From contig LJSV01000024.1 of assembly GCA_001314715.1 (NCBI GenBank), positions 1 through 35,914 on the forward strand: DNA of 35,914 nt, given 5' to 3'. The DNA is from Rhodobacteraceae bacterium HLUCCA12. GTDB taxonomy: Bacteria; Pseudomonadota; Alphaproteobacteria; Rhodobacterales; Rhodobacteraceae. Below the pieces are notes generated by a model. That model worked only from the letters and a program-made list of their open reading frames with translations. It made no database searches and was not told the DNA's origin. Below are positions 20,425 to 34,029 of the stretch, one piece after another; positions within the stretch are counted from its first letter, which is position 1, and each line of letters starts with the position of its first letter. Position numbers and translations under genes: made by a program.

Positions 20425-22020
20425 CTACTGGCCATCCTCTGCACCTGATCCGGTCGTCGCGTCCTGATCGCACAGGAAGCCATAGGCGGGCCAGGGCGTG
20501 TCTTCGGGCTGTTCCAGCGGCCAGGAGCGGCACGACAGGTCGGGATGACGATGTTCGATCCATTGCAGCAATTGCTCGCCATCGGTCGGCACGACGATGC
20601 CACCCACCGGGCGCAGCTCGACTGCCGCCTCTTCGGCCCGCCAGGGCACGCGATAGCGCGCGGGGGGCACGTCGCCCAGCAGTTCATGATAAAGCGTGGC
20701 CATCCGCAAGCCGTAGGTCATCGAGACCAGCGGGTCCTCGACGGGAGCCTGCTCGACCAGCGCCGTGATGGATTCGGGAAGGGTCGTGAAAATCGGCTCG
20801 CGCGCGGTCAGCCCCTCGGCCATCATCAGGGCACGCCACGCACCGATGCCGACCAGCACCAGCGCGGCCATCCGTTGCGTCGAGCCGTTGCGCCCCAGCC
20901 ACCACCCGCAGGCCGCAACCACGCCCACCAGCAGCGGCCCCAGAACCGGCAGATGAAACGCCTGAATGTCATAGGCCCCATACCACAGCATGAATGGCAG
21001 GAACGACGCCGCCGCCCCCAGCACCACCAGCAGGCCATACCAGGCTGGGTCGCGGCGGCGCCAGCCGACGACAAACAGAACCAGCCCCGCGACGATGAGC
21101 GGCGCCGAGATCCAGGGATGCGCGAAACGCAGCGTGCTCAGCAATGTCTCGGTGGTGTGGGTCGATCGCAGGCCCGAGCCGAAAAGCCCGCTGAAATAGG
21201 TGCCGGTGATGTAGCGAAAGTACTCCGACAATGTGGGCGGCAGCGGCAGGTATTCCGAATAGGCGGTGTCGGGGTGATGGACGATATAGGCGAGATAGAG
21301 ATACTGGCTGGAGCCCACGACGATCGCCGCCAGAACCGCCAGGATCACGCGAAGTTTCCAAAGCAGCCGCCAATGCGCGATCAGGATCCACAGGAACATC
21401 GGGATCAGCATGATCATCATCAGATGATTGCCGAACGAAATCGCATAAACCCAGCATGCGGCGATGAAAAAGCCGCGGCGTTTGGTCTCGACGAAAAGCA
21501 CCAGCAGGTAGGACACGCCAAGGATGAAGGCCAGCGCAAGCGGGTAAACCTCGGCCTCGGTCGATTGCACCGCCATCAGCGAGGCCGCGCCAAGAACCAG
21601 CGAGCCGGCAATGCCGAAGGTGACGCTGCGCGACAGTTGCGCGACGATCAGAAAGGCAACGGTATTCGCCACCGCGCCGGGAACGGCGGCCATGGCAAAG
21701 GTCATGGCGCGCCAGGGTTCGATCGGCAACGACAGACCCCGCACGAGCGTGCCCAGCATATGGATCAGCGGATAGCCGGGGCCATGCACCAGGATCTGGG
21801 TATGCCCAAGGGTCTGGAACTTGGCGGTATCGCCGGCATTCATCACCCCGCCCAGGCCCGGAAACAGGCAATACCCGTAATAGGCCGCCCAGAACGCGAA
21901 AACCCCGAACGCGATCGCCGCGCGCAGCGCGCGGGCCTGCCCCAGATGCGGCATCCCGCCGGGCGCGTTGAGCGGGTCATGGCCGTTCAGCGCGGCGGGC
22001 ATGTTCGTGGGAAGTGTCAT
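20425..22020 (-). CDS. DUF2723 / GT-C-like integral membrane protein
   Basis: This 531-residue multi-spanning membrane protein contains the DUF2723 signature GDTAKFQTLGHTQILVHGPG followed by YPLIHMLG in the first periplasmic loop, then about ten further hydrophobic segments. DUF2723 proteins resemble GT-C glycosyltransferases of the protein O-mannosyltransferase type, where an acidic residue in the first loop is catalytic; D63 in this loop is the candidate. The C-terminal 100 residues are soluble and probably periplasmic. It overlaps the AsmA-like gene by 4 bases, suggesting a joint role in the cell envelope. Confidence 0.8.
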   Translation of the reverse strand: MTLPTNMPAALNGHDPLNAPGGMPHLGQARALRAAIAFGVFAFWAAYYGYCLFPGLGGVMNAGDTAKFQTLGHTQILVHGPGYPLIHMLGTLVRGLSLPIEPWRAMTFAMAAVPGAVANTVAFLIVAQLSRSVTFGIAGSLVLGAASLMAVQSTEAEVYPLALAFILGVSYLLVLFVETKRRGFFIAACWVYAISFGNHLMMIMLIPMFLWILIAHWRLLWKLRVILAVLAAIVVGSSQYLYLAYIVHHPDTAYSEYLPLPPTLSEYFRYITGTYFSGLFGSGLRSTHTTETLLSTLRFAHPWISAPLIVAGLVLFVVGWRRRDPAWYGLLVVLGAAASFLPFMLWYGAYDIQAFHLPVLGPLLVGVVAACGWWLGRNGSTQRMAALVLVGIGAWRALMMAEGLTAREPIFTTLPESITALVEQAPVEDPLVSMTYGLRMATLYHELLGDVPPARYRVPWRAEEAAVELRPVGGIVVPTDGEQLLQWIEHRHPDLSCRSWPLEQPEDTPWPAYGFLCDQDATTGSGAEDGQ

Positions 22021-23939
22021 TGCGAAGTCCTGTCAGAGGCCGGCCGGATGTCGGTGTCGCCGTCACGGTTCGGCACACCCACCGCCACCACGGGGGCCGA
22101 AAGGGTGCCGCCAAGTCCGAAGGGCAGATCGACAAGCGATGCCGCGTCCTCGTCGTCGGGATCGTCGGCGTGCAAGGACGCCTGCCCCTCGACCTGCATC
22201 TCGCCGACCGGCAACGCGGCTTCGCCGTTCAATTCGATGGCATACCGTCCGCCGCGGATGCTGGCCCGGCGCAGTTCGGCGCGACCGGGCACGAAATCGA
22301 CCCGGCCCTCGACCGTATCGAAATAGGTGCGGCCGGCGGCGGGGATCAGCGGGCCATCGCGTTCCGTCATGAAGCGGCGCCCCTCGGCCACCGCCTCGAG
22401 CGTCAGGATCAGATCGGCGCCCGCGATGCTGCCGTCGCGGGCTTCGGCCTCGATCGATCCGTCCAGGGAACTCAGCAGCGCACCCAAGGTCTCGCCCCGT
22501 GCCGCAAGGTCGTAGCGCCCGTCCAGCCGACCGTTCGGCAGCTCCATCGGGCTGACCAGGGGCGGCGGGGCCTGGGCCTGGGCCTGGATGAATTCCCCCA
22601 GGGTTTCCAGATCGACCCTGTCAAGCCGGCCGTTCGAATCGACGCGGATTCCGCCGGTGTCGGTGTCGGGCGTCAGCATGGCCTCGGCGGCCATCTCGCC
22701 GATGTCCCCACTGGTCCGAACGCTGAGATTCAGGTTCGCGTCGCGGGTCTCCAGCCGAAGGCGCCGGGCCTCAAGGTCGGGCCCGGCGATGCCGGCCTCG
22801 CGCATACCCGCATCCAGGGTGATGTCGACCGGGGCAAGCCAGTCCAGCGTGAGCGGCGCCGCCCGCCAGGTGCCTGCGGCAAACGCCTCGGCGACCTCTT
22901 CCCAGGCGCGGCCCGCGCCGTCAAGGACGCGGTTGAGTTGCTGGCCCGGTGGTGCGGTTCCCGGCAAGACCACGTCAAGATCGCCCTCGAACAGCAGGCT
23001 TTTCACCGACATGGACGCATCGGCGATGCGCAGCGCGCGCGGTGTCAGCGCAAACTGCCCTTCAAGAGCAAGCGACCCGGCCGGCGACAGGCCCAGCATA
23101 TCGGTCACCCAAAGCAGCGCACGCGCGGCGCGACCCTGGTCCAGGGCAACCGTGGCAGCTTGCGGCGGCGGCGATGGCACGGTTGCGGGCTGCTGGGCGG
23201 GAAGGTTCTGAAGCGCCAGCCGTGCCTGGCTGCCCTCGGCCGAGAAAGCCGAAAGCGGGTTTTCGAGCCACGCTTCCAGTCCGATCCGCCGCTCGCCCAC
23301 CGGGAGTCCGCCCGACAGCAGAACGCCGGCCGTTTCCTCGGCTGCCGCCAGCCGCAGATCGATGCCGCGCAAGGCTTCCATGCCCGAACTGGCGATCGTG
23401 GCGTCAGTCAGGATCAACTCACCCACCGGCATGGGGGTGTCGGGGGCGTCACCGTCGGCATCACTGGTGATTGGCGTGTCGGGCAGCGATATCTCGCCGT
23501 CGTGGATGCGGATGCGGGGCCGGTCAAGCACCAGTTGCCCGACCTCGATCTTGCCGCGCAGCAGGGGCATGGCCCGGATCGACGCCCTGAGCGCCGCCAC
23601 CTCGATCCGCCAAGTCACCCCGCCGGCAGAGCCTGCGAGCACCACATCGTCCAGCGCCACGCGCAATCCGCGGTCCAGCGAAATGTCGCCGAAATGGCGC
23701 AGCCGGGCCTCGCTTCCGGTCCAGGTCGCGACATGGTCGGACAGGGCGGCGCGCAAACGCTGATCGGGCACGAGGTCGGGCAGGGCACGATACGCCAGCG
23801 CGCCGGCCCCGGCAACGATGGCGACGATCACCCCCAGTGTCAGCGCCCAGCGCCGCACAGACCAGCGCCGGGTGGTCCGTCGGGCGGGTGTGCTGCGGTC
23901 GGATGCCCCGTCGCGGTCGTGTGATGTCGGAACCTTCAT
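22017..23939 (-). CDS. AsmA-like inner-membrane-anchored protein
   Basis: This 640-residue protein has a charged N-terminus, one membrane segment at about residues 32-50 (ALTLGVIVAIVAGAGAL) and a long repetitive beta-rich periplasmic part. LPDLVPDQRLRAALSDHVATWTG is the AsmA N-terminal hallmark, and GRYDLAARGETLGALLSSLDG with SIEAEARDGSIAGADL is the C-terminal AsmA pattern. AsmA-type proteins form hydrophobic grooves and are linked to phospholipid transport to the outer membrane. I chose the ATG at 23939 because the upstream extension lacks coding character. The 3' end overlaps the DUF2723 gene in ATGA form. Confidence 0.85.
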   Translation of the reverse strand: MKVPTSHDRDGASDRSTPARRTTRRWSVRRWALTLGVIVAIVAGAGALAYRALPDLVPDQRLRAALSDHVATWTGSEARLRHFGDISLDRGLRVALDDVVLAGSAGGVTWRIEVAALRASIRAMPLLRGKIEVGQLVLDRPRIRIHDGEISLPDTPITSDADGDAPDTPMPVGELILTDATIASSGMEALRGIDLRLAAAEETAGVLLSGGLPVGERRIGLEAWLENPLSAFSAEGSQARLALQNLPAQQPATVPSPPPQAATVALDQGRAARALLWVTDMLGLSPAGSLALEGQFALTPRALRIADASMSVKSLLFEGDLDVVLPGTAPPGQQLNRVLDGAGRAWEEVAEAFAAGTWRAAPLTLDWLAPVDITLDAGMREAGIAGPDLEARRLRLETRDANLNLSVRTSGDIGEMAAEAMLTPDTDTGGIRVDSNGRLDRVDLETLGEFIQAQAQAPPPLVSPMELPNGRLDGRYDLAARGETLGALLSSLDGSIEAEARDGSIAGADLILTLEAVAEGRRFMTERDGPLIPAAGRTYFDTVEGRVDFVPGRAELRRASIRGGRYAIELNGEAALPVGEMQVEGQASLHADDPDDEDAASLVDLPFGLGGTLSAPVVAVGVPNRDGDTDIRPASDRTSQ

Positions 23940-24228
23940 GGCCTCATTTCGTGGTTGCAGCGGCAATCTAGATAGGCGGCACGGGGCATGCAAACAAACC
24001 ACCGTGATATCGGCAAAAATCCGCAAATCGCGGGTTCGTGACACCCTGCCGTGAACCGGATCGAACCGCAGTTCGTGCCGATCTGTCGCTGGCGGGTCAA
24101 GGCCCCGTGCAAACGCGCGCAACGATTGTCACGATACCTTTGGCCGCCCATGGTCTACGCCGGTTGTGAAAATGTCCAGACGGCAGCGGCGCGATGGGGC
24201 CGAAAGGGGCGGGCGATGCCGGCGCGTG
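23940..24228. other. Intergenic region upstream of the AsmA-like gene
   Basis: This 289-base stretch lies between the stop of the PPC-domain gene and the AsmA-like start, both on the minus strand. It should contain the AsmA promoter and the end of the catabolic transcript, but I see no convincing -35/-10 pair, hairpin or RNA gene. Confidence 0.5.
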
Positions 24229-25086
24229 CTATCGCTGGGGCAACAGCAAGACCTCGGCGGTGACGCAGATGGCATTGGCGCCTGGTGCCAGCCGCCCTGA
24301 TTGGCTGCGCCCGTCGAACCCTGTGCCCCCCACCTCGAGCGACAGAGCTTCGCCCTGCAACTGGCCGTTCACGATCAGGATCTCGGTCGCATAGCTGTCA
24401 ATCGACCGGCCATCGTCAAAGGCGATGCCGATCAGGCTGCCGATCCCCTCGATCCGGGCCGCGCGGAGAGACTGGGCGCGCGCGAAGTCCGACAAGGCCG
24501 CGCCGATGTCCTGATTGGGGCGCAGGGTGATCAGGAACGCATCGCCCTGCGCGCCTTGGGCCGTCGGCTCGGGCCGGAACAGGGTGAAATCGGTCTCGGG
24601 GTCGTGGCGCGCGGTCATCTCTGCGCCCCTGATGCCCCAGCCCGTGAGCGTGCAATCGCGCGCCAGGACGCTGTCGCCGCACAGCATGTGCCCGGTATCC
24701 GCGCCGGACTCGGACGCCCCGTCCGCCGCGTGCCACATCCCGTGGCAATGCAGGAACGGCTGGCCGTCGCGTCGGCCCAGATGCGCCCCGGCGTGCCGTA
24801 CCCGCGCACCGGCCACGATCCGGTGCGTGGCGCTGTACCACGCCGCGTGGCCATCGCCCGGCGCCGGGGCCGGGGTGACGAAATGCAAGGGCGCGAACTC
24901 GGCGCCATCGAGTCGCAGGTAGCCGGCGGTGAACCCAAGGCGGGCAAACGCCGCGGGCACCGCGTCTGACAGGCTCTGGCCCGCGCGCAGGTCCAGGCGC
25001 AGCTCAACCGCCTGGCAGGGCAGGGCGCGGATACGCCGGTCGGCCGGTGCGCCGGGGTGGCGTATGTGGCGCAAGCCCGTGGTCAT
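24229..25086 (-). CDS. Double PPC (DUF296) domain protein
   Basis: This 285-residue protein appears to contain two copies of the PPC/DUF296 fold (plant and prokaryote conserved domain). The first runs about 25-150 (DLRAGQSLSDAVPAAFARLG ... AHLGRRDGQPFLHCHGMWH). The second runs about 175-285 (LRPNQDIGAALSDFARAQ then AARIEGIGSLIGIAFDDG). The first copy keeps H..LGxxDG...HG, the histidine-containing stretch of prokaryotic PPC proteins; the second has lost most histidines but retains the IEGIGS turn. PPC proteins form trimers and their bacterial function is unknown. The start overlaps the acyl-CoA ligase stop by 4 bases, making it the last gene of the IclR-thiolase-ligase operon, so a role in that pathway is likely. 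Confidence 0.78.
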   Translation of the reverse strand: MTTGLRHIRHPGAPADRRIRALPCQAVELRLDLRAGQSLSDAVPAAFARLGFTAGYLRLDGAEFAPLHFVTPAPAPGDGHAAWYSATHRIVAGARVRHAGAHLGRRDGQPFLHCHGMWHAADGASESGADTGHMLCGDSVLARDCTLTGWGIRGAEMTARHDPETDFTLFRPEPTAQGAQGDAFLITLRPNQDIGAALSDFARAQSLRAARIEGIGSLIGIAFDDGRSIDSYATEILIVNGQLQGEALSLEVGGTGFDGRSQSGRLAPGANAICVTAEVLLLPQR

Positions 25087-26672
25087 GCCCGCTGTTCCGG
25101 CAGCTCGCCGCGGGCTTCCAGCTCGTCACGGATCATTTTCTTGGTGATCTTGCCATAGGCCGACTTTGGCAGCGCGTCCCAGAAAACGATATGGCGCGGG
25201 CGCTTGTATCCGGCGATCTGCGGGGCAAGCCAGTCCAGCACGGCCTTGCCGTCGGGGCGGGCGCCATCGCGTGCGACGCAGACGGCCATGCCGACCTCGC
25301 CCCAGACCGGGTCGGGCACGCCCAGCACCGCAACCTCGGACAGGTCGGGATGGAGCAAGAGCTTTTCCTCGATCTCGCGCGGATAGATGTTCGATCCGCC
25401 CGAGATATACATGTCCGACGCCCGGCCGGTCAGATAGACGAAGCCCTGCGCATCCATGTGCCCCAGATCGCCGGTCAGGAACCAGCCGTTGCGAAAGCTT
25501 TTGGCATTGGCCTCGGGGTTGTTGTAATAGCCCGCAAAGACGGCCGGGCCGATCACCGCGATCTCTCCGGTTTCGCCGAAATCGACCTCTTCGCCCCGGT
25601 CGTTCTGAATCTGCACCTGCATCCCCGTGCGCGCGAACCCGCAGGTGCCGATGCGCATGCGCTCGTCGTCAAGGTGGTGATGGACCGGGGGCAGGACGGT
25701 GATGTTTCCCGTAACCTCGCCCAGCCCGAAATACTGCACCAGAACCGGGCCCAGCTTTTCCAGCGCCAGCCGCTGGTCGGCGCGATACATTGGCGCGCCC
25801 GCGTAAATGACATGGCGCAGGCTGGAATGGTCATGCTGATCGACGGCCGGGTGTTCGACCAGCAGCTTGACGATGGTGGGCACGGTGAACATGTTGCTGA
25901 CGCGCCAGCGCGCGACCAGTTCCCAGATTTCCGCCGGGTCGAATTTCTCGCCCGCGGGAAGGATCGTCTTGACCCCGTGGGCGACCTGCGCAAGCTGGTG
26001 GATGCCCGCCCCGTGCGACAGCGGCGCCACCACCAGCGAGGCATCCTCGGGCCCGGTGCCGGGCATCAGGTCGCACAGGTGGTTGGTGACGACAAAGGCC
26101 AGCTGGCCATGCGTCAGCACCGCCGCCTTGGGCCGGCCGGTCGTGCCCGAGGTAAAGAAGAACCAGGCCGGGTCGTCGCGCTGCACGACGACCGGATCGG
26201 GGCGCGCCCCGTCGTGGCGGGCGATGAGCGTCTCATACACGTCGCCAAGGGCGATGGTTGCATCGACATGCGCCGCGCAGGCGCGGGCGTGATCGGGAAA
26301 CTGTGCGCCGCACAGCAGCAGGCGCGCGCCCGAGGAGTCCGCCAGCCAGGCCAGATCCTCGGGCGACAGGCGGAAATTCGCGGGCACCCACACCGCGCCC
26401 ACGCGCCAGCAGGCGAACATCGCCTCGAACATCTGGTTGCAATTGGCCGATTGCACCAGCACCCGGTCGCCCTTGGCGATCCCGTAGTCCTGCACCAGCG
26501 CCTGCGCAAAGGCCGCGGCACGGGCGTCCATTTCGGCCCAGCTCCAGCGTGCGTCGCCGCGGACGAATGCGATGTCATCACCCAGCCGCCGCGCGCTTTC
26601 GGTCAGAAAGTGCGACAGGTTCATCACGCGGGTCGAAAAGGGCGTGACGCCTTGCGACAGATCCTGCCTCAT
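25083..26672 (-). CDS. Acyl-CoA synthetase (AMP-forming)
   Basis: This 529-residue ANL-superfamily enzyme activates a carboxylic acid to its CoA thioester through an acyl-AMP. FFFTSGTTGRPKAAVLTHG (about 171-189) is the A3 P-loop, FGLGEVTGN the A5 motif and FLTGDLGHMDAQG the A7 motif. SGGSNIYPREIEE is A8, and the C-terminal lysine in KSAYGKITKK is catalytic for adenylation. The substrate is unknown. Its ATG overlaps the thiolase stop (26669-26672); an internal ATG at 26624 is an alternative start. It lies between a thiolase and a PPC protein, suggesting degradation of an imported acid. Confidence 0.92.
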   Translation of the reverse strand: MRQDLSQGVTPFSTRVMNLSHFLTESARRLGDDIAFVRGDARWSWAEMDARAAAFAQALVQDYGIAKGDRVLVQSANCNQMFEAMFACWRVGAVWVPANFRLSPEDLAWLADSSGARLLLCGAQFPDHARACAAHVDATIALGDVYETLIARHDGARPDPVVVQRDDPAWFFFTSGTTGRPKAAVLTHGQLAFVVTNHLCDLMPGTGPEDASLVVAPLSHGAGIHQLAQVAHGVKTILPAGEKFDPAEIWELVARWRVSNMFTVPTIVKLLVEHPAVDQHDHSSLRHVIYAGAPMYRADQRLALEKLGPVLVQYFGLGEVTGNITVLPPVHHHLDDERMRIGTCGFARTGMQVQIQNDRGEEVDFGETGEIAVIGPAVFAGYYNNPEANAKSFRNGWFLTGDLGHMDAQGFVYLTGRASDMYISGGSNIYPREIEEKLLLHPDLSEVAVLGVPDPVWGEVGMAVCVARDGARPDGKAVLDWLAPQIAGYKRPRHIVFWDALPKSAYGKITKKMIRDELEARGELPEQRA

Positions 26673-27838
26673 TTCACGCGTTCCAGGATCGAGGCATAGT
26701 TGGTCACCGCCGCGCCGCCCATGTTGAACACACCCGCCAGCCGTGCGCCGGGGATCTGCATGCCCTCGGCCCGTTCGGTCAGTTGCATCGCGGCCATGAC
26801 ATGCATCGACACGCCCGTGGCCCCGATCGGGTGCCCCTTGGACTTGAGCCCGCCCGAGGGGTTGACCGGCAGTCGCCCGTCCTTTCGGGTGATGCCGTCG
26901 CGGATGACCCGGTGGCCCTGACCGGGCTCGGCCAGCCCCATCGCCTCGTATTCCAGCATCTCGGCGATGGTGAAACAGTCATGGGTTTCGACAAGACTCA
27001 GATCGTCCAGCGTGACCCCGGCGTCGGACAGCGTCTTGGCCCAGGCCATGCGGGCGCCACGAAATTCCAGCACGTCGCGCCGCGACATCGCCATGATGTC
27101 ATTGGCCTGCGCTCGCGCCCGAAAACCGATGGCCCGCGCCATGCCGGCCGCGGTCTCGGCATCGGCCAGCACCAGAACGGCGGCACCGTCCGAGACCAGC
27201 GAACAATCCGTGCGCCGCAGGGGGCCGGCCACGCGCGGGTTCTTGTCGGACACGGTATTGCAGAACGCCAGCCCGAAATCCTTGCGCATATGCGCATAGG
27301 GGTTGGCCATGCCGTTGGCGTGGTTCTTGGCGGCGATCATGGCCAGTTCCTCGGACCGATCGCCGTATCGCTGAAAATAGCTTTGCGCGATCTGGCCGAA
27401 CAGACCGGCGAACCCGCCCTCGACCTCGGCTTCCTCGGCGCGATAGCTCGCACCCAGGAGGATGTCGCCGACCTCGGCCGTGGGTGTGGCGGTCATCTTC
27501 TCGGCGCCGACGACAAGGGCGATGCGCCCGCGCCCGGCCTCGATGAAGTCCATCGCGCCATGCAGCGCGGCCGACCCGGTGGCGCAGGCGTTTTCATACC
27601 GCGTGGCCGGCGTATGGGCCAGGCGCTCATCGCCCATGGCGACCAGCGCCGCCTGAAAATCCTGTTTGGAAAAGCCGTTGTTGAAGACGCCCACGAAAAT
27701 GCCGTCGACATCTTCGGCGCCGATCCCGGTATGCGCCAGCGCCTGCGACACCGCATCGGCCATCAGGCTTTCGGTGTCGGGATGCTCGGATTTGCCAAAG
27801 GCCGTGTGGCCCCAGCCGACGATCTGTGCGCCTGTCAT
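26669..27838 (-). CDS. Thiolase family protein (SCP2-like acetyl-CoA acyltransferase)
   Basis: This 389-residue thiolase-fold protein has the nucleophile C85 in YENACATGSAA, H286 in ETHDCF and H336 in SKGHPIGATG. The usual second cysteine near the C-terminus (CxGGG) is replaced by Asn in VFNMGGAAV, as in the SCP2-thiolase/nonspecific lipid-transfer branch. That makes CoA-dependent cleavage or an acyl transfer likely, and canonical condensation less so. It overlaps both neighbours by 4 bases (IclR upstream, ligase downstream). Substrate unknown. Confidence 0.9.
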   Translation of the reverse strand: MTGAQIVGWGHTAFGKSEHPDTESLMADAVSQALAHTGIGAEDVDGIFVGVFNNGFSKQDFQAALVAMGDERLAHTPATRYENACATGSAALHGAMDFIEAGRGRIALVVGAEKMTATPTAEVGDILLGASYRAEEAEVEGGFAGLFGQIAQSYFQRYGDRSEELAMIAAKNHANGMANPYAHMRKDFGLAFCNTVSDKNPRVAGPLRRTDCSLVSDGAAVLVLADAETAAGMARAIGFRARAQANDIMAMSRRDVLEFRGARMAWAKTLSDAGVTLDDLSLVETHDCFTIAEMLEYEAMGLAEPGQGHRVIRDGITRKDGRLPVNPSGGLKSKGHPIGATGVSMHVMAAMQLTERAEGMQIPGARLAGVFNMGGAAVTNYASILERVK

Positions 27839-28683
27839 GGTGCGGTTCCTTCTTTCGGCCTGTCCGGGGCAACCCCCTTGGCCAGGCGTGTTTCGATCAC
27901 GCGGGCCTCGGCCCGCAGCTTGCGCGCCAGGTCTTCGCGGCGCGGCGCCTTCATCCGGCTTTCCACGGCGGCCAGCGACAGCGCGCCGACCAGTTGGCCG
28001 CCCGGCCCGCGCAGCGCGACGCCCAGGCCCCAGGAATCCTCAAAAATCAGGCCGGGGTTGAGCGCGATGCCCGTGTCGCGGGTCTTTGCCACCTGTGCGC
28101 GCAACGTGTCCGGTTTCAGGCGCGGATAGCTGGTTTCAAGTTCGGCGCGATTGGCTTCCAGCACTGCCTCGACCTCGTCCTCGGGCAGGGCCGCCAGCAT
28201 CGCCAGCGAACCCGCGCCCACGCCCAGCGGATGGTGCGCGCCGGGCATCAGGGCATAGGTGCGAATCGGATGTGCGCCGTCTTCGCGGTGCAGGCAGACG
28301 GCATAAAGCCCGCGGCGCACCGAGACGAAGGCGGCATCCCCGGTCTCGCGCGCCAGACGCTGCAACGAATCGATGGCCTGCGACAGCAGCCCGTGGCGAC
28401 CCTGCGCCAGCAATCCCAGCAGATACGCCTCTTCGCCCAGGTGATAGGCGCGGCTCTGCGCGCCCTGTTCGACCAGCCCCGCCCGCATCAGCGCCAGCAG
28501 CAGGCGCCGCACCGTCGCCTTGTTCAGCCCGGTCTGGCCGACGATGACGGAAAGCGGCATGCCTTCGGCGGGATGACGCCCGATCAGCGACAGCAGCGCA
28601 AGCGCCCGATCGACGCTTTGCGCGCCACCAATCGCCGAATCCGACCCTTCAAGTTTCATAATGTGAACCGTCGCATCGGCCAT
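27835..28683 (-). CDS. IclR family transcriptional regulator
   Basis: This 282-residue protein has an N-terminal winged helix-turn-helix (about 19-80), SVDRALALLSLIGRH then GLNKATVRRLLLALMRAGLV. A C-terminal IclR effector domain (about 95-265) follows, containing PLGVGAGSLAMLAAL and VALRGPGGQLVGALSLAA. IclR proteins bind small acids. It is the first gene of the minus-strand operon and divergent to the TRAP genes, so it likely controls both. The start is not certain: ATG at 28683 is used, ATG at 28659 is possible, and neither has a strong ribosome-binding site. Confidence 0.9.
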   Translation of the reverse strand: MADATVHIMKLEGSDSAIGGAQSVDRALALLSLIGRHPAEGMPLSVIVGQTGLNKATVRRLLLALMRAGLVEQGAQSRAYHLGEEAYLLGLLAQGRHGLLSQAIDSLQRLARETGDAAFVSVRRGLYAVCLHREDGAHPIRTYALMPGAHHPLGVGAGSLAMLAALPEDEVEAVLEANRAELETSYPRLKPDTLRAQVAKTRDTGIALNPGLIFEDSWGLGVALRGPGGQLVGALSLAAVESRMKAPRREDLARKLRAEARVIETRLAKGVAPDRPKEGTAP

Positions 28684-28736
28684 GTTTCGCTGTTTTCACC
28701 CCGTTTCCAGTTTATTTTGATTTTATTTCGCGCAGG

Positions 28737-28784
28737 TTGCAAGTTTTTCTTGCAATTTTGAAAAACCACGGTCCACTATTTGGA
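28737..28784. promoter_or_regulatory. Two inverted repeats in the IclR-dctP intergenic region
   Basis: TTGCAAG (28737-28743) and CTTGCAA (28749-28755) form a perfect 7-bp inverted repeat around five T. TCCA-CTATT-TGGA (28772-28784) is a second, 4-bp repeat. Both lie in the AT-rich 155-base region between the divergent iclR and dctP starts, where an IclR-type regulator would bind. Confidence 0.5.
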
Positions 28785-28838
28785 AAAATCAGGCAAGGGC
28801 CACGCAGGCCATTCGCGATTTTTCAAAGGGAGGAAGGA

Positions 28839-29843
28839 ATGACATTCACACGCATGACCGGCACCGCACTGGCGGCGGGCCTTGCCACGGCATTGAGCCT
28901 TGGTGCGGCAACGGCCGAAACCCTGCGCCTGTCGCACAATACCGGCGACACCACGACCTGGCACCAGGGCGCCGAACGCTTTGCCGAACTGCTGGACGAA
29001 CGCACCGATGGCGAACTGACCGTGCGCGTTTTCCCCAATGCGCAGCTGTCGGGTGGCGACCAGATGCGCCAGGCCGAGATGGTCGGGCGCGGGGCGCTGG
29101 ATCTGGTGGTGACTTCGGCCATCAACGTCACGCCGCTGGTCCCTGAGATGGCGGTCTTTTCGCTGCCCTACCTCTATTCCAATTACGAACAGGTCGATGC
29201 CACCACGCAGGGCGAACCCGGACAGATGCTGTCGGACATTCTGGCCGAACGCGGCATTGTCGTCCTGGCCTGGGGTGAGAACGGCTTTCGTGAAGTCACC
29301 AACAACACCCGCCCGATCCGTTCGCCCGAAGACCTGGAAGGGCTGAACATGCGCGTCGCCGGGCCGATGTATATCGACGTGATGAATGCCCTTGGCGCGA
29401 ACCCGCAGCAGATGCAGTGGGGCGAGACGATGTCGGCGCTTCAGCAGGGCGTGGTTGACGGGCAGGAAAACCCGATCGGCGCGGTGATCATCCCGCAGCA
29501 GGTGTACGAGGTGCAAAAATACCTGACCACCTGGCACTATTCGTATGATCCGATCTTCATCGGCATCTCGCAGGCGAAATGGGATGGCTATGACGCCGAG
29601 ACGCAGGAACTGATCCGCGACGCCGCCCAGGAGGCCATGGCCTATCAGCGCGAGATCACCCGCGAGGGCACCGCCGAGGGGGTCGAATACCTGCGCGAGC
29701 AGGGCATGGAAGTCTATGAGCCCACCGACGAAGAGCTTGCCGCCTTCCGCGAAGCGACGCAGCCGGCCTTTGACGAATGGGCCGAGCGCGTCGGCCCCGA
29801 GATCGTCAATGCCTTCCAGGATGCGATCGCCGCAACCAACTGA
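28839..29843 (+). CDS. dctP: TRAP transporter solute-binding protein DctP
   Basis: This 334-residue periplasmic binding protein has a Sec signal peptide at residues 1-26 (MTFTRMTGTALAAGLATALS, cleavage after ATA). R172 in GLNMRVAGPMY is the conserved arginine that forms a salt bridge with the substrate carboxylate in DctP proteins. QWGETMSALQQGVVDGQENP is the signature that follows. AAGGGAGGAAGG is a strong ribosome-binding site. The ligand is probably an organic acid. A strong hairpin follows the stop before dctQ, a common way to make more binding protein than membrane subunits. Confidence 0.93.
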   Translation: MTFTRMTGTALAAGLATALSLGAATAETLRLSHNTGDTTTWHQGAERFAELLDERTDGELTVRVFPNAQLSGGDQMRQAEMVGRGALDLVVTSAINVTPLVPEMAVFSLPYLYSNYEQVDATTQGEPGQMLSDILAERGIVVLAWGENGFREVTNNTRPIRSPEDLEGLNMRVAGPMYIDVMNALGANPQQMQWGETMSALQQGVVDGQENPIGAVIIPQQVYEVQKYLTTWHYSYDPIFIGISQAKWDGYDAETQELIRDAAQEAMAYQREITREGTAEGVEYLREQGMEVYEPTDEELAAFREATQPAFDEWAERVGPEIVNAFQDAIAATN

Positions 29844-29858
29844 ACCGTGACACGGTGT

Positions 29859-29890
29859 CCCGCGGCCCCCGACCGGGGCCGCGGGGCCTT
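29859..29890 (+). terminator. Strong hairpin between dctP and dctQ
   Basis: CCCGCGGCCCC (29859-29869) and GGGGCCGCGGG (29875-29885) form a perfect 11-bp stem with a CGACC loop, followed by GCCTTTTGCG. It begins 15 bases after the dctP stop. The short T run suggests a leaky terminator or an mRNA 3'-end stabiliser. Confidence 0.7.
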
Positions 29891-29910
29891 TTGCGTCGAG
29901 GGCCAAGCGG

Positions 29911-30399
29911 ATGATGCGCCTGCTGCTGCGTGATTTCGAAAAGATCATTTGCGCCGCCCTGTTCCTGGGGATGACGGCGCTTGGCTTTGCCAATGTCGTG
30001 GTCCGGTATGGAACCCGCTATTCGTTTGCGGCCAGCGAGGAATTGCTGGTCAACGGCTTTTTGCTGCTGACGGTCTTCGGCGCGGCGCTGGCCGCACGGC
30101 GCGGCGAGCATCTGGCCGTGACCGTGGTGCATGACCTGATGCCGCGGGTGCTGTGGCTGCCGGTCCTTCTGCTTTCCGTCGCGCTTTCGGTGATCCTGCT
30201 GGGTTTGTCTGCCTGGTTTTCCTGGGAGGCGATGATGAACATCAAGCGCGTGGGCATGCGATCCTATGCGCTGGGCATTCCCGCCTGGTACTATCAGGCC
30301 GCGCTGCCCTTCGGATTCGCGCTGGTCTGTATCCGGTATCTGCAACACGCCTGGACGGTGATGCGCACCGGCAGGGGAACGGAGATCGGCCATGTTTGA
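29911..30399 (+). CDS. dctQ: TRAP transporter small permease DctQ
   Basis: This 162-residue membrane protein has four predicted transmembrane segments (about 12-32, 45-62, 85-105 and 128-148). It shows the DctQ features: NVVVRYGTRYSFAASEELLV after TM1 and AARRGEHLAVTVV in the loop after TM2. The small subunit joins the large permease in the inner membrane to receive substrate from DctP and couples transport to a sodium gradient. It overlaps dctM by 8 bases. Confidence 0.9.
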   Translation: MMRLLLRDFEKIICAALFLGMTALGFANVVVRYGTRYSFAASEELLVNGFLLLTVFGAALAARRGEHLAVTVVHDLMPRVLWLPVLLLSVALSVILLGLSAWFSWEAMMNIKRVGMRSYALGIPAWYYQAALPFGFALVCIRYLQHAWTVMRTGRGTEIGHV

Positions 30400-31726
30400 G
30401 GCGATCGGGATCGACTCGGCCGGAACGCAGATGATCATCGTCTTCTTTCTGCTCATGGCGCTGCGGATGCCGGTGGCCTTTGCGCTGGGCTTGTCGGCGA
30501 TTTACGCGATGTGGACGATCGGATTCGGCCTCGATCTGGCCGGCGATCTGATCGCGACCGGCATCACCAAGTTCTCGCTGCTGGCGATTCCGTTCTTCAT
30601 TCTGGCGGGCACGCTGATGGGCAGCCTTGGCATTGCCGAGCGCATGATCCGGTTCTTTCGCGTGGCGGTCGGCGGGTTGCCCGGCGGTATGGGGATGGTC
30701 GGCACGGTGGTGTGCCTGTTCTGGGGCGCTGTCAGCGGCTCGGGCCCGGCATCGGTTGCGGCCATCGGCCCGATGATCATCAAGGGGATGGAGGACGACG
30801 GCTATGACCGCGCTTTCGCCGCCGGTCTGGTGGTGACGGGGGCGGCCTTTTCCATCGTCATCCCGCCGTCGATCGGGCTCGTGATCTATGGTGTCATTGC
30901 CGAAACATCGATTTCGCAGCTGTTCATTGCCGCCATCATTCCCGGCATCTTCATGGCCCTGACCATGCTGGCCGTGCTGCCCTTCGCGCGCCGCCATGGC
31001 GTCGCGGGCGGCAGCCCCGGCCTGCAATCGCTGAGCCCCGACCCCTATGGCGGCAGTTCCCGGCGCACGGCCCTGTGGCAATCCTTCCGCGACAGTTTCT
31101 GGGGCCTGATGACGCCCGTGGTCATCCTGGGCGGTATCTATTCCGGTGTCTTCACCCCGACCGAGGCGGCGATCGTGGCCACGGTCTATGCGCTTGCGGT
31201 CGGGGCCTTCGCCTATCGCACCCTGACGTTCCAACGGCTTTACGATGCGCTTGGCGCCGCAGCGGCCTCGTCGGCGGTGGTGATGCTGATCGTCGCCTAT
31301 GCCAGCCTGTTCGGCTGGGTCGTCACCATCGACGATCTCGTCGGCAGCTATTCCAGCGCGCTTCTGGGGCTCAGTGACAATGACTGGATCATCTTGCTGG
31401 TGATCATGGTGATCCTGCTGGTCGCGGGCATGTTCATGGACCCGGTGACGGTCATGTTCATCGCGCTGCCGATCTTTCTGCCGGTCTCGCGGGAAATCGG
31501 CTGGGATCCGGTCTGGTTCGGTGTCGTGGTGATGATCAACCTTGCGATCGGCCTGATCACGCCACCGGTGGGGATCAACCTTTATGTCGCGGCCAATGTC
31601 ACCCGGCTGAGCATCGAACGCGTCGCGCGCGGCACCATGCCGTTCCTGCTGGCCAGCCTGGTGGGAATCGCCGTGGTCGCGGCAATCCCGCAGATGTCGC
31701 TGATCCTGTTGCAGTGGCTGCGGTGA
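30392..31726 (+). CDS. dctM: TRAP transporter large permease DctM
   Basis: This 444-residue integral membrane protein of the DctM family has about 12 hydrophobic segments, with re-entrant hairpins expected. LLAIPFFILAGTLMG, WGAVSGSGPASVAAIGP and VIPPSIGLVIYGV are the conserved motifs of the substrate/sodium pathway; LITPPVGINLYVA is the matching motif in the second half. The start overlaps dctQ, so the two subunits are coupled. Together with DctP it forms a complete TRAP system. Confidence 0.93.
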   Translation: MFEAIGIDSAGTQMIIVFFLLMALRMPVAFALGLSAIYAMWTIGFGLDLAGDLIATGITKFSLLAIPFFILAGTLMGSLGIAERMIRFFRVAVGGLPGGMGMVGTVVCLFWGAVSGSGPASVAAIGPMIIKGMEDDGYDRAFAAGLVVTGAAFSIVIPPSIGLVIYGVIAETSISQLFIAAIIPGIFMALTMLAVLPFARRHGVAGGSPGLQSLSPDPYGGSSRRTALWQSFRDSFWGLMTPVVILGGIYSGVFTPTEAAIVATVYALAVGAFAYRTLTFQRLYDALGAAAASSAVVMLIVAYASLFGWVVTIDDLVGSYSSALLGLSDNDWIILLVIMVILLVAGMFMDPVTVMFIALPIFLPVSREIGWDPVWFGVVVMINLAIGLITPPVGINLYVAANVTRLSIERVARGTMPFLLASLVGIAVVAAIPQMSLILLQWLR

Positions 31727-31745
31727 TCAACGGAAAGGGTCAGTC

Positions 31746-32501
31746 ATGGACATGAAAACCGCCATCGTCACCGGCGCCGCGCGCGGCATCGGGCTGGCAA
31801 CGACGCAGCTGATGCTGGACGAGGGCTGGCAGGTCGCGATGATCGACCGCGACGCCGAAGCCCTGAAAACCGCGGCCGAGGGGCTGGCGCATGTCTTGCC
31901 GGTGGTCTGCGATGTGTCCGACCCCGATCAGGTCGATGACATGACCGCGGATGTTGTGCGCCGCTGCGGCCGCGTCGATGCCTTGGTCAACAATGCCGGC
32001 GTGGCCGATTTCCGCCCGCTCGACGAGACCGATTTCGTCACCTGGCGAACGGTGATGGGCACCAATCTGGACGGTGTCTTTCTGGCCAGCCAGGCAGCGC
32101 TGCCGCATCTGAAAAAGACCCGCGGCGCCATTGTCAACATCGCCTCGATTTCCGGGTTGCGCGCCAGCACGCTACGCGTGGCCTATGGCACCTCGAAAGC
32201 GGCGGTGATCCATCTGACCCGCCAGCAGGCCGCCGAACTGGGCGAATGGGGCATTCGCGCCAATTGCGTCGCGCCCGGCCCGGTCGATACCAAGCTGGCG
32301 CTGGCCGTGCATTCCCCCGCCATCCGTGCCGCCTATCATGACGCGATCCCGCTCAACCGCTACGGGTCCGAGCGCGAGATCGCCGAGGCGATCGTGTTCC
32401 TATGCTCGCAACGCGCAAGCTACGTCACCGGCCAGGTGATTGCGGTGGATGGCGGGTTCGAGGCCGTCGGCGTCGGCCTGCCGGCGTTGCGCGGGGCCTG
32501 A
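31746..32501 (+). CDS. SDR family NAD(P)-dependent oxidoreductase
   Basis: This 251-residue classical short-chain dehydrogenase has TGAARGIG (9-16) as the nucleotide-binding motif, and D34 at the end of strand 2 favours NAD(H). NNAG (82-85) is the structural motif. N107, S134, Y147 and K151 form the catalytic tetrad. It lies 19 bases after dctM in the same transcript, so it probably oxidises or reduces the imported compound or a CoA intermediate of the divergent thiolase/ligase pathway. Confidence 0.92.
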   Translation: MDMKTAIVTGAARGIGLATTQLMLDEGWQVAMIDRDAEALKTAAEGLAHVLPVVCDVSDPDQVDDMTADVVRRCGRVDALVNNAGVADFRPLDETDFVTWRTVMGTNLDGVFLASQAALPHLKKTRGAIVNIASISGLRASTLRVAYGTSKAAVIHLTRQQAAELGEWGIRANCVAPGPVDTKLALAVHSPAIRAAYHDAIPLNRYGSEREIAEAIVFLCSQRASYVTGQVIAVDGGFEAVGVGLPALRGA

Positions 32502-32615: not shown

Positions 32616-33671
32616 ATGCGATTGCCGGCGGGCCGGCTGACACGACCGGCGCTGATCTATGCAGGGGCGGTGGGATGCGGCTGGATCGGCAGCCTGATCA
32701 ACCTGCCGCTGCCGTGGATGATCGGCGCATTGGTCTTTTCGACCGTGCTCAGCCTTTCGGGCGTCGCGGTCCGGGTTCCGGCCGTGACCCGACCGGTGGG
32801 TCAGATCGTGATTGCGGGGTCGGTCGGAATGGCCTTTACCCCGGCGGCGCTGGAAAGCCTTGCGCAAATGGTCGGGCCGATGGTTCTGGCCGCGCTTGCC
32901 ACGCTGGCGGCCGGGTTCGTCGTGGCATGGGCACTGACACGGATGGCCGCCGTCGACGCGATCACCGCAAGCCTTGCCTCGATCCCGATGGGTCCGGTCG
33001 AATCGGCCAATCTGGCACGGCGCTACGGGGTCGCGCCGGGGCCCGTGATCTTCACGCAGACGCTGCGTATCATGACGCTGGTCCTCTTGATCCCGCCGGC
33101 GGTGCTGGCCTTCAACGGCGGGATACACGGCGCCGACAGCGCGCTGCGCGCCATGCACTGGACCGCGCCGGGCGCAGCGCTGCTGCTTGTCCTGGCGGTG
33201 GCGGGCGCCTTCCTGACCAAGGCCGTGCGGTTGTCCAACCCGTTTTTCCTGGGGCCGCTGGCGGCCTCGGCGGCGGCCTCGGCGGCCGGTCTGCCGGTGA
33301 CGGCCGTGCCCTACTGGATGCTGGCGGGGGCGCAGGTGTTGTTGGGGGTCTGGCTGGGTGCGGCGATGGATCGCGACCTCTTTCGCCGCGCCGGCGGGTT
33401 CGTGGCCGCGGCGGTGGCCTCGACCCTTCTGATGATCGTCTTGTGCGTGGCCATGGCCCTCGCAATGGCGGCGGCGACCGGATCAGCCTGGAGCACGATG
33501 GTCCTGGCCTTCGCGCCGGGCAGCGTGACCGAGATGGCCCTGACCGCCAAGATGCTGCAAGCCGACATCGCGCTGGTGACGGCGTTTCACCTGGTTCGGA
33601 TCTTCATCATCCTGCCGACGGCGCCGCTGTTCACGCGCTGGGTTGCCTGGCTGGTGCGCCCGCAAAGCTGA
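32616..33671 (+). CDS. AbrB family membrane protein
   Basis: This 351-residue protein has about ten hydrophobic segments in two similar halves, each with a family turn: LPWMIGALVFSTVLSLSG in the first and NPFFLGPLAASAAASAAG in the second. This is the duplicated gneg_AbrB_dup pattern (TIGR03082). Despite the name (from AbrB of E. coli), these are membrane proteins and not DNA-binding. Function is unknown, probably transport. It follows the SDR gene after 114 bases. Its last 85 bases overlap the convergent lipoprotein gene. Confidence 0.85.
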   Translation: MRLPAGRLTRPALIYAGAVGCGWIGSLINLPLPWMIGALVFSTVLSLSGVAVRVPAVTRPVGQIVIAGSVGMAFTPAALESLAQMVGPMVLAALATLAAGFVVAWALTRMAAVDAITASLASIPMGPVESANLARRYGVAPGPVIFTQTLRIMTLVLLIPPAVLAFNGGIHGADSALRAMHWTAPGAALLLVLAVAGAFLTKAVRLSNPFFLGPLAASAAASAAGLPVTAVPYWMLAGAQVLLGVWLGAAMDRDLFRRAGGFVAAAVASTLLMIVLCVAMALAMAAATGSAWSTMVLAFAPGSVTEMALTAKMLQADIALVTAFHLVRIFIILPTAPLFTRWVAWLVRPQS

Positions 33672-33953: not shown

Positions 33954-34029
33954 TGGTGCCGGTTGAGGGGCTCGAACCCCCGACCTTCGGTTTACAAAAC
34001 CGCTGCTCTACCAGCTGAGCTAAACCGGC
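33954..34029 (-). tRNA. tRNA-Thr (anticodon TGT)
   Basis: A full cloverleaf of 76 bases is read on the minus strand. The acceptor stem is GCCGGTT/AACCGGC, the D stem GCTC/GAGC, the anticodon loop TTTGTAA with TGT at positions 34-36, and the T arm carries TTCGAGC. A73 is followed by an encoded CCA (33956-33954). The first pair of the anticodon stem is a G-A mismatch (27-43) and one T-stem pair is G-T. TGT reads ACA and, by wobble, other Thr codons. Confidence 0.95.

Follow-up and report, generated by a model that had tools for sequence, protein, structure and literature searches.

The 35,914-nt contig LJSV01000024.1 of Rhodobacteraceae bacterium HLUCCA12 (assembly GCA_001314715.1), referred to in its full length as the window, carries a gene cluster in which a protein with two PPC domains, an AMP-forming acyl-coenzyme A (CoA) ligase, an SCP2-type thiolase and an IclR-family regulator face a tripartite ATP-independent periplasmic (TRAP) transporter and a short-chain dehydrogenase/reductase (SDR). 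This gene set, found together in numerous bacteria from soil and sea, probably serves to take up a small hydroxy-acid and to break it down through a CoA route. More specifically, and with about an even chance of being right, we propose one regulon by which a short hydroxy-carboxylate is taken up and broken down by thiolysis, with a metal-dependent double PPC enzyme and two-operator IclR control. The components of the cluster are the following:

24229–25086, minus strand: double PPC (PCC/DUF296) protein of 285 aa, from Pfam and profile comparison; H113, H115, H133 and E164 in the N-terminal half, E235 and E278 in the C-terminal half.
25083–26672, minus strand: AMP-forming acyl-CoA ligase of the PRK07470 family, from Pfam and NCBIfam (900 bits, cut-off 774).
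26669–27838, minus strand: SCP2-type thiolase of the PRK07516 family, from Pfam and NCBIfam (667 bits, cut-off 412); C85, HDCF at 286–289 and H336.
27835–28683, minus strand: IclR-family regulator, from Pfam; possible true start at ATG 28657–28659.
28653–28669, no strand: operator-like palindrome 1, matching at 13 of 16 scored positions and overlapping the 5' end of iclR.
28770–28786, no strand: operator-like palindrome 2, lying 117 bp from palindrome 1 and scoring 12 of 16, which is weak by itself.
28839–29843, plus strand: DctP-type TRAP solute-binding protein of 334 aa (PF03480); the listed open reading frame (ORF) starts at an earlier TTG, 28737.
29911–30399, plus strand: DctQ small permease (PF04290).
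30392–31726, plus strand: DctM large permease (PF06808).
31746–32501, plus strand: SDR oxidoreductase, from Pfam and NCBIfam; glycine motif, Asp after beta2, Ser/Tyr/Lys motifs.

The layout claimed in the initial annotation, i.e. four overlapping minus-strand genes facing TRAP and SDR genes across 155 bases, was confirmed from the ORF list, which places the PPC, ligase, thiolase and IclR genes in the minus-strand arm and the TRAP P, Q and M genes with the SDR in the plus-strand arm. A 4-base overlap occurs at every junction of the minus arm (25083–25086, 26669–26672 and 27835–27838), and the divergent gap of 155 bases (28684–28838) separates the called iclR start at 28683 from the dctP ATG at 28839. 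If the in-frame ATG at 28657–28659 is the true iclR start, the gap may be 179 bases. All the cluster proteins were named by Pfam and all except the PPC protein by NCBIfam, and the P, Q and M subunits of a complete DctP-type TRAP transporter were all matched (PF03480, PF04290, PF06808).

To follow the two arms in relatives, genomes were scanned with a PPC profile, thus obtaining 340 loci encoding relatives, of which the best 80 were taken with flanks of up to 10 kb. These are the closest relatives and no random sample (19 are labelled Bradyrhizobium); 34 genus labels occur among the loci, some being only family or order names of metagenome-assembled genomes. Presence was called at identity thresholds set by us, and genes by a simple GC-position rule that makes the neighbour lists rough. 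Among these best 80 of 340, the ligase was found in 76/80, the TRAP binding protein in 48/80, IclR in 47/80, SDR_A or SDR_B2 in 43/80 and the thiolase in 39/80; in the 63 loci of at least 20 kb the corresponding counts were 61, 43, 42, 38 (SDR) and 31. By genus label, the ligase was present in 31/34, TRAP with ligase in 25/34, TRAP with ligase, SDR and IclR in 22/34, and the thiolase in 21/34. The initial annotation would have been refuted by a neighbourhood analysis in which the two arms do not go together; this refutation did not occur, since ligase (76/80) and TRAP binding protein (48/80) accompany the PPC gene, and the recurrence of the gene set indicates that the arrangement is not due to chance.

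A divergent layout like that of the window was observed on annotated plasmids of Roseinatronobacter, Alloyangia, Sulfitobacter and Paracoccus liaowanqingii, and also, without an SDR in the stretch viewed, on a Loktanella plasmid. Other arrangements, with an annotated fused permease, occur in Agrobacterium, Sinorhizobium, Paracoccus denitrificans (PD1222), Terrarubrum, Roseomonas and Variovorax. The 48 TRAP binding proteins comprise 20 of the window type (type A) and 28 of a second type with a fused permease (type B), and the identity of 27.8% between the type-A and type-B proteins compared indicates that two different importers accompany the same enzymes. Pararhodobacter and a Rhodobacter strain have thiolase, ligase and PPC genes without TRAP. 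Overall, the cluster was found in rhizobia, roseobacters, paracocci, halomonads and some betaproteobacteria, a spread suggesting that the substrate may be an acid common in the environment. The search of the loci for recurrent extra neighbours yielded mostly groups confined to Bradyrhizobium or to another single relative group. The genome of the window has one double PPC gene; genomes of the same genus with a near-full-length match have PPC proteins 35–42% identical to it, and Roseinatronobacter one at 53%, which may point to a separate acquisition of the window copy.

Of the double PPC protein, a little-studied component of the cluster, Pfam PF03479 matches the second half only (26.2 bits, cut-off 25); nevertheless, each half matches single-domain PPC proteins in profile comparison (hhalign P 1.8e-13 and 1.2e-13). 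According to these alignments, the first half keeps the HxH...GH motif, which is lost from the second; the second half in turn has two Glu residues at positions that are conserved as Glu in single PPC proteins but no longer in the first half. An alignment was built from 111 loci, giving 109 proteins (L197 and L198 were dropped, their match being split over two genes) and 103 distinct rows; H113, H115, H133, E235 and E278 are present in all the 102 rows covering them and E164 in 101. In Roseomonas and Variovorax the two halves are encoded by two overlapping genes of the same cluster, with the residues divided in the same way. A second, split pair lies beside the single-chain copy on the Agrobacterium plasmid pAtCFBP5877a (L020, 10909–11869, minus strand), and similar split pairs were found in L036 and L047. 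The predicted model of the double protein has a mean predicted local distance difference test score (pLDDT) of 95.5, and Foldseek retrieved with it eight PPC chains first, including AF0104, which is called 'metal-containing'. In addition, ligase and PPC protein are fused in a single open frame of about 820–830 aa in 11/80 loci, with the PPC part at the ligase C-terminus; the domains of one fusion were confirmed, and no other locus tested was fused. As all 11 fusions bear Rhizobiaceae names or that of 'Rhizobiales bacterium', they perhaps stem from one event. On this sequence evidence, we propose for the PPC protein the role of a metalloenzyme that cooperates with the ligase. The earlier suggestion that it may supply a chemical step is plausible and gains support from the His3/Glu2 set and the ligase fusion.

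As for the control of the two arms, a 17-bp palindrome near GGTCCATANTATGGACC stands out in 24 type-A divergent regions, the window included. At a score of at least 13/16 it occurs 43 times, in all 24 type-A regions and twice in 19 of them, as compared with 0.36 occurrences expected in first-order Markov sequences. Since the motif was derived from type-A regions, type B serves as an independent check, and here 12 palindromes were found in 7/31 regions versus 0.12 expected, three of the seven being Pandoraea with common sites. The two best sites lie 117–120 bp apart in 20/24 type-A regions, the window's included; the other spacings are 75, 107, 130 and 140, the last three of which would be about one or two helical turns off. 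Over the whole window, a score of 12/16 is reached 10 times and one of at least 13 once; a score of 12 being not rare, the second site of the window rests on its spacing. Palindrome 1 covers the in-frame iclR ATG at 28657–28659 (codon 9 of the called gene), which would suit autoregulation. These features make the palindrome pair a candidate IclR operator pair, or switch, over both arms, possibly acting by looping. A whole-genome pattern search with one mismatch allowed retrieved the first site and three others, and none with the backwards control, the pattern being too strict for the second site. Apart from the first site, a single perfect match occurs in the genome, and it adjoins transposase-like frames, as read from translations. 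A TTTGAAAAATCA repeat in the window gap was also considered as operator and dropped, being absent from the 23 other regions. No sigma-70-type promoter was found at 28400–29000.

The structures nearest to the window thiolase are SCP2-thiolases (4bi9, E 1e-56), and C85, H286-D-C288-F and H336 are present in all 52 sequences compared (at least 60% identity, window included). The C-terminal NMGGAAV, as read from the sequence, contains no Cys, and the initial annotation had concluded that a thiolase without the second cysteine implies non-standard chemistry. This conclusion was rejected, because the full SCP2-type catalytic set (C85/HDCF/H336) is in place: in the excerpts of PMC7682436 and PMC12329534, SCP2-thiolases are described as having no CxG motif, with the HDCF cysteine possibly assuming its catalytic role. 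In Chelatococcus and Mesorhizobium, among others, the thiolase is not in the cluster; a homologue of 59–84% identity is encoded in 22/22 genomes searched, including 20/20 without a thiolase in the cluster, and the surroundings of these stand-alone homologues vary (10 of 23 matches viewed). In two rhizobial loci (L161, L163) the stand-alone homologue is followed immediately by an SDR gene, with choline-betaine-like genes, so named from reading the sequences, nearby. The ligase passes the PRK07470 cut-off, and T174, G176, K182 and K508 are present in all 93 sequences, window included. The SDR scores 238 bits against the BudC butanediol dehydrogenase profile, under the curated cut-off of 270, and was not assigned to it. 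An Asp after beta2 denotes NAD use in SDRs, hence our guess that the window SDR uses NAD.

No acyl-CoA dehydrogenase or enoyl-CoA hydratase was found among the cluster genes scanned with Pfam, and the cluster is thus no standard beta-oxidation operon. The absence reported in the initial annotation stands for these genes; the anomaly read into it would not, should the imported compound be a beta-hydroxy or beta-keto acid from the start, as the breakdown of such acids bypasses both enzymes. Such genes lie beside the cluster in one relative, Rhizobium leguminosarum pRLG203 (L200, 7745–11542, plus strand), where an acyl-CoA dehydrogenase, a 3-hydroxyisobutyryl-CoA hydrolase, a 3-hydroxyisobutyrate dehydrogenase and an enoyl-CoA hydratase follow directly. 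At this one locus, the valine-pathway-like module would suit an isobutyryl-CoA product. Neither these genes nor an acetolactate-synthase-like gene near the cluster of Roseomonas recurred in the other loci compared.

Carboxylate import, CoA activation and thiolysis, as outlined in the initial annotation, remain the natural reading of a cluster whose arms are conserved together. With all steps assigned from protein families, the route might run as follows. The TRAP transporter would import a beta-hydroxy acid, the alpha carbon of which probably bears a hydroxyl or a branch; the SDR would oxidise the beta-hydroxyl, the ligase would make the beta-keto-acyl-CoA, and the thiolase would release acetyl-CoA or another acyl-CoA together with a shorter acyl-CoA. 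The double PPC protein would be a metal-dependent enzyme with one active site formed by both halves, the His triad from the first and the Glu pair from the second. It would act beside the ligase, most probably once the acid has reached the alpha-hydroxy-beta-keto stage, and would isomerise, decarboxylate or hydrolyse it into a form ready for activation. Fusion and adjacency suggest that the PPC and ligase steps are successive, and the position of the PPC gene between two SDR genes in Phyllobacterium sp. 628 fits a PPC step after an oxidation. Bound to two operators, IclR would repress both arms, perhaps through looping, for as long as neither the substrate nor an intermediate is available.

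Several other roles of the PPC protein were weighed against this proposal. A hydrolase that opens a lactone or ester, or hydrolyses an acyl-CoA, in order to prepare or clear the ligase substrate without any alpha-hydroxy-beta-keto chemistry, would be in line with the ligase fusion, and p-nitrophenyl acetate is hydrolysed by the three-His zinc protein C11orf54 according to PMC12435205; sugar-acid genes, on the other hand, are only occasional neighbours of the cluster, and we regard this role as rather doubtful. The plain scavenging of a beta-hydroxy acid (e.g. 3-hydroxybutyrate-like), with the PPC protein as an accessory, is unlikely in our view: SDR, ligase and thiolase suffice for such a route by established chemistry, but the ligase-PPC pairing (76/80) is more constant than the thiolase-PPC pairing (39/80), a comparison that leans towards PPC because the 80 loci were chosen by it.

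That the PPC protein instead binds DNA or regulates the operon, as plant AHL and some bacterial DUF296 proteins are held to do, seems quite improbable, even though the E. coli DUF296 protein LmiA is described, in the section of PMC7667037 seen, as a regulator with a three-His zinc site, and some split PPC halves are named 'DNA-binding protein' in plasmid records. The operon already has an IclR, the PPC protein is fused to an enzyme C-terminus in 11/80 loci, its invariant residues are a metal-type His triad and Glu divided between the halves, and no AT-hook was noticed by eye, no search for it having been made. Finally, the PPC protein might be a non-catalytic stabiliser of the SCP2-type thiolase replacing DUF35 partners, which related enzymes bind according to the excerpt of PMC12329534; Pfam matched no DUF35 in the nine proteins scanned, which are encoded by the cluster and the gene that follows it. 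We consider this role very improbable, as the PPC protein is fused to the ligase rather than to the thiolase and remains when the thiolase leaves the cluster.

The proposal of one regulon with a catalytic PPC protein also has to face observations that speak against it. Within the locus DNA examined, the ligase-PPC pair of Bradyrhizobium stands without TRAP, IclR or thiolase in 18/19 loci, and 4/80 PPC genes (L063, L066, L074 and L081) have no ligase, L066 and L074 being short contigs; in Phyllobacterium sp. 628, where the order is TRAP-SDR-PPC-SDR, a stretch of 14.8 kb has no annotated ligase or thiolase gene. Partnership among the parts of the cluster is therefore not obligatory. In a direct comparison of the two PPC halves the match is only weak (P 0.0071), a catalytic role of PPC proteins is not established and some are treated as DNA-binding. 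On the regulatory side, the second palindrome of the window is weak when taken singly, and IclR is linked to the sites by the motif only. 

As regards the substrate, the leads are thin. The structure nearest to the window DctP is 4P8B (Ralstonia eutropha H16_A1328; E 9e-74, 36% identity), and the one nearest to the type-B DctP of Agrobacterium is 4OAN (Rhodopseudomonas palustris RPB_2686; E 1e-151), which is reported to have been modelled with 2-acetolactate. TRAP ligands include 2-acetolactate and pantoate/D-erythronate, as stated without naming entries in the portion of PMC5812351 seen. In 5/5 Bradyrhizobium loci viewed (L148–L152), 4OAN-like binding proteins occur with a fused permease and a different ligase, about 30% identical to the cluster ligase and of the PRK08162 family in L148, a pairing that weakens the inference of an acetolactate-type substrate. 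PPC proteins, acetolactate decarboxylase and PTD012 are said to have a common fold class. By Foldseek, acetolactate decarboxylases came at ranks 11, 13, 14, 33 and 48 of the 50 matches listed (probability 0.28–0.77, TM-score 0.22–0.27), with much weaker matches than those of the PPC chains and mixed with unrelated folds; the PPC protein has no Pfam match to acetolactate decarboxylase (PF03306), and their full-length profile comparison gave a probability of 0.3. A profile test with four sequences gave P 0.0013, without shuffles. Homology to acetolactate decarboxylase was then not accepted beyond a lead, as the test with 11 sequences and 21 columns gave P 0.0064 and the best of 40 column-shuffled controls 0.0061; the best P for 24 slices of an unrelated alignment was 0.058. 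DUF1907/PF08925, the C11orf54 family, was found in 0/299 genomes, a negative that carries no information, as the control genomes likewise had no match. We therefore suggest that the PPC protein perhaps works like an acetolactate decarboxylase, without claiming that it is one. We hold as a tentative possibility that double and split PPC proteins form a new metal-dependent enzyme family, with a composite His3-Glu2 site built from complementary half-sites, which would act on alpha-hydroxy-beta-keto (acetolactate-like) acids or their CoA esters. Its place would be directly at the side of an acyl-CoA ligase, within a TRAP regulon looped by IclR and serving a branched hydroxy-acid with an undescribed breakdown route.

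Around the cluster, an AbrB-family (PF05145) membrane protein is encoded directly after the SDR (32616–33671, plus strand), in the window only according to the neighbour table of the compared loci. Further downstream, a tRNA-Thr (TGT) at 33954–34029 (minus strand) is the sole RNA gene found in the window. On the other side, a TMEM260-like O-mannosyl-transferase-type membrane protein and an AsmA-family protein are encoded with a 4-base overlap at 20425–22020 and 22017–24122 (minus strand). The PADLOC scan gave no match. In Bradyrhizobium sp. LHD-71 (L063, 7597–12384) the PPC gene lies between kinase-like (as read from the sequence), 2-hydroxyacid dehydrogenase-like and MlrC-like genes.

In the open-access literature searched, most subscription papers lying outside the search, no description was found of DUF296/PPC proteins with acyl-CoA ligase, SCP2-type thiolase, IclR or TRAP. 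Queries for PRK07470, PRK07516, DUF296 and the PPC domain returned, among the matches listed, mostly plant DNA-binding AHL genes and none with PRK07470 or PRK07516. PPC/DUF296 proteins are present in 24/100 sampled genomes of the phylum and, to our knowledge, the bacterial ones are mostly without assigned function; if confirmed, ours would be the first catalytic role for prokaryotic PPC/DUF296 domains that we know of. A constant operon partner, the ligase fusions and the invariant metal-site-like residues across both halves make the PPC domain a testable enzyme, and the paired, evenly spaced operator-like sites offer a ready test case for IclR looping.

Compared with known systems, a TRAP-linked catabolic operon is of a known kind, whereas the literature covered yielded neither the partnership of PPC protein and ligase nor the arrangement with two operators. 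Single-domain PPC/PCC proteins (AF0104, 2h6l; PH0802, 2dt4; BT_1116, 3htn) share the fold and the HxH...GGH motif with the window protein, which differs in having two domains per chain, with the His set in the first half only and the Glu pair in the second only. The motif is also shared by acetolactate decarboxylase (PF03306), and the His triad compares with the three-His zinc site of C11orf54/PTD012; C11orf54 is presented, in the part of PMC12435205 seen, as a three-His zinc protein structurally related to acetolactate decarboxylase and acting as beta-ketogulonate decarboxylase. The window thiolase resembles SCP2-type thiolases (4bi9, 3zbg; PRK07516) in its N-terminal Cys, HDCF loop, GHP His and missing CxG cysteine, and differs in its operon context with a PPC protein. 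Finally, the regulator is of the same family as those of the IclR-controlled catabolic operons of BhcR and PcaR/PcaU/PobR, but scores far under their curated cut-offs (BhcR, 102 of 350 bits; PcaR/PcaU, 75 of 285).

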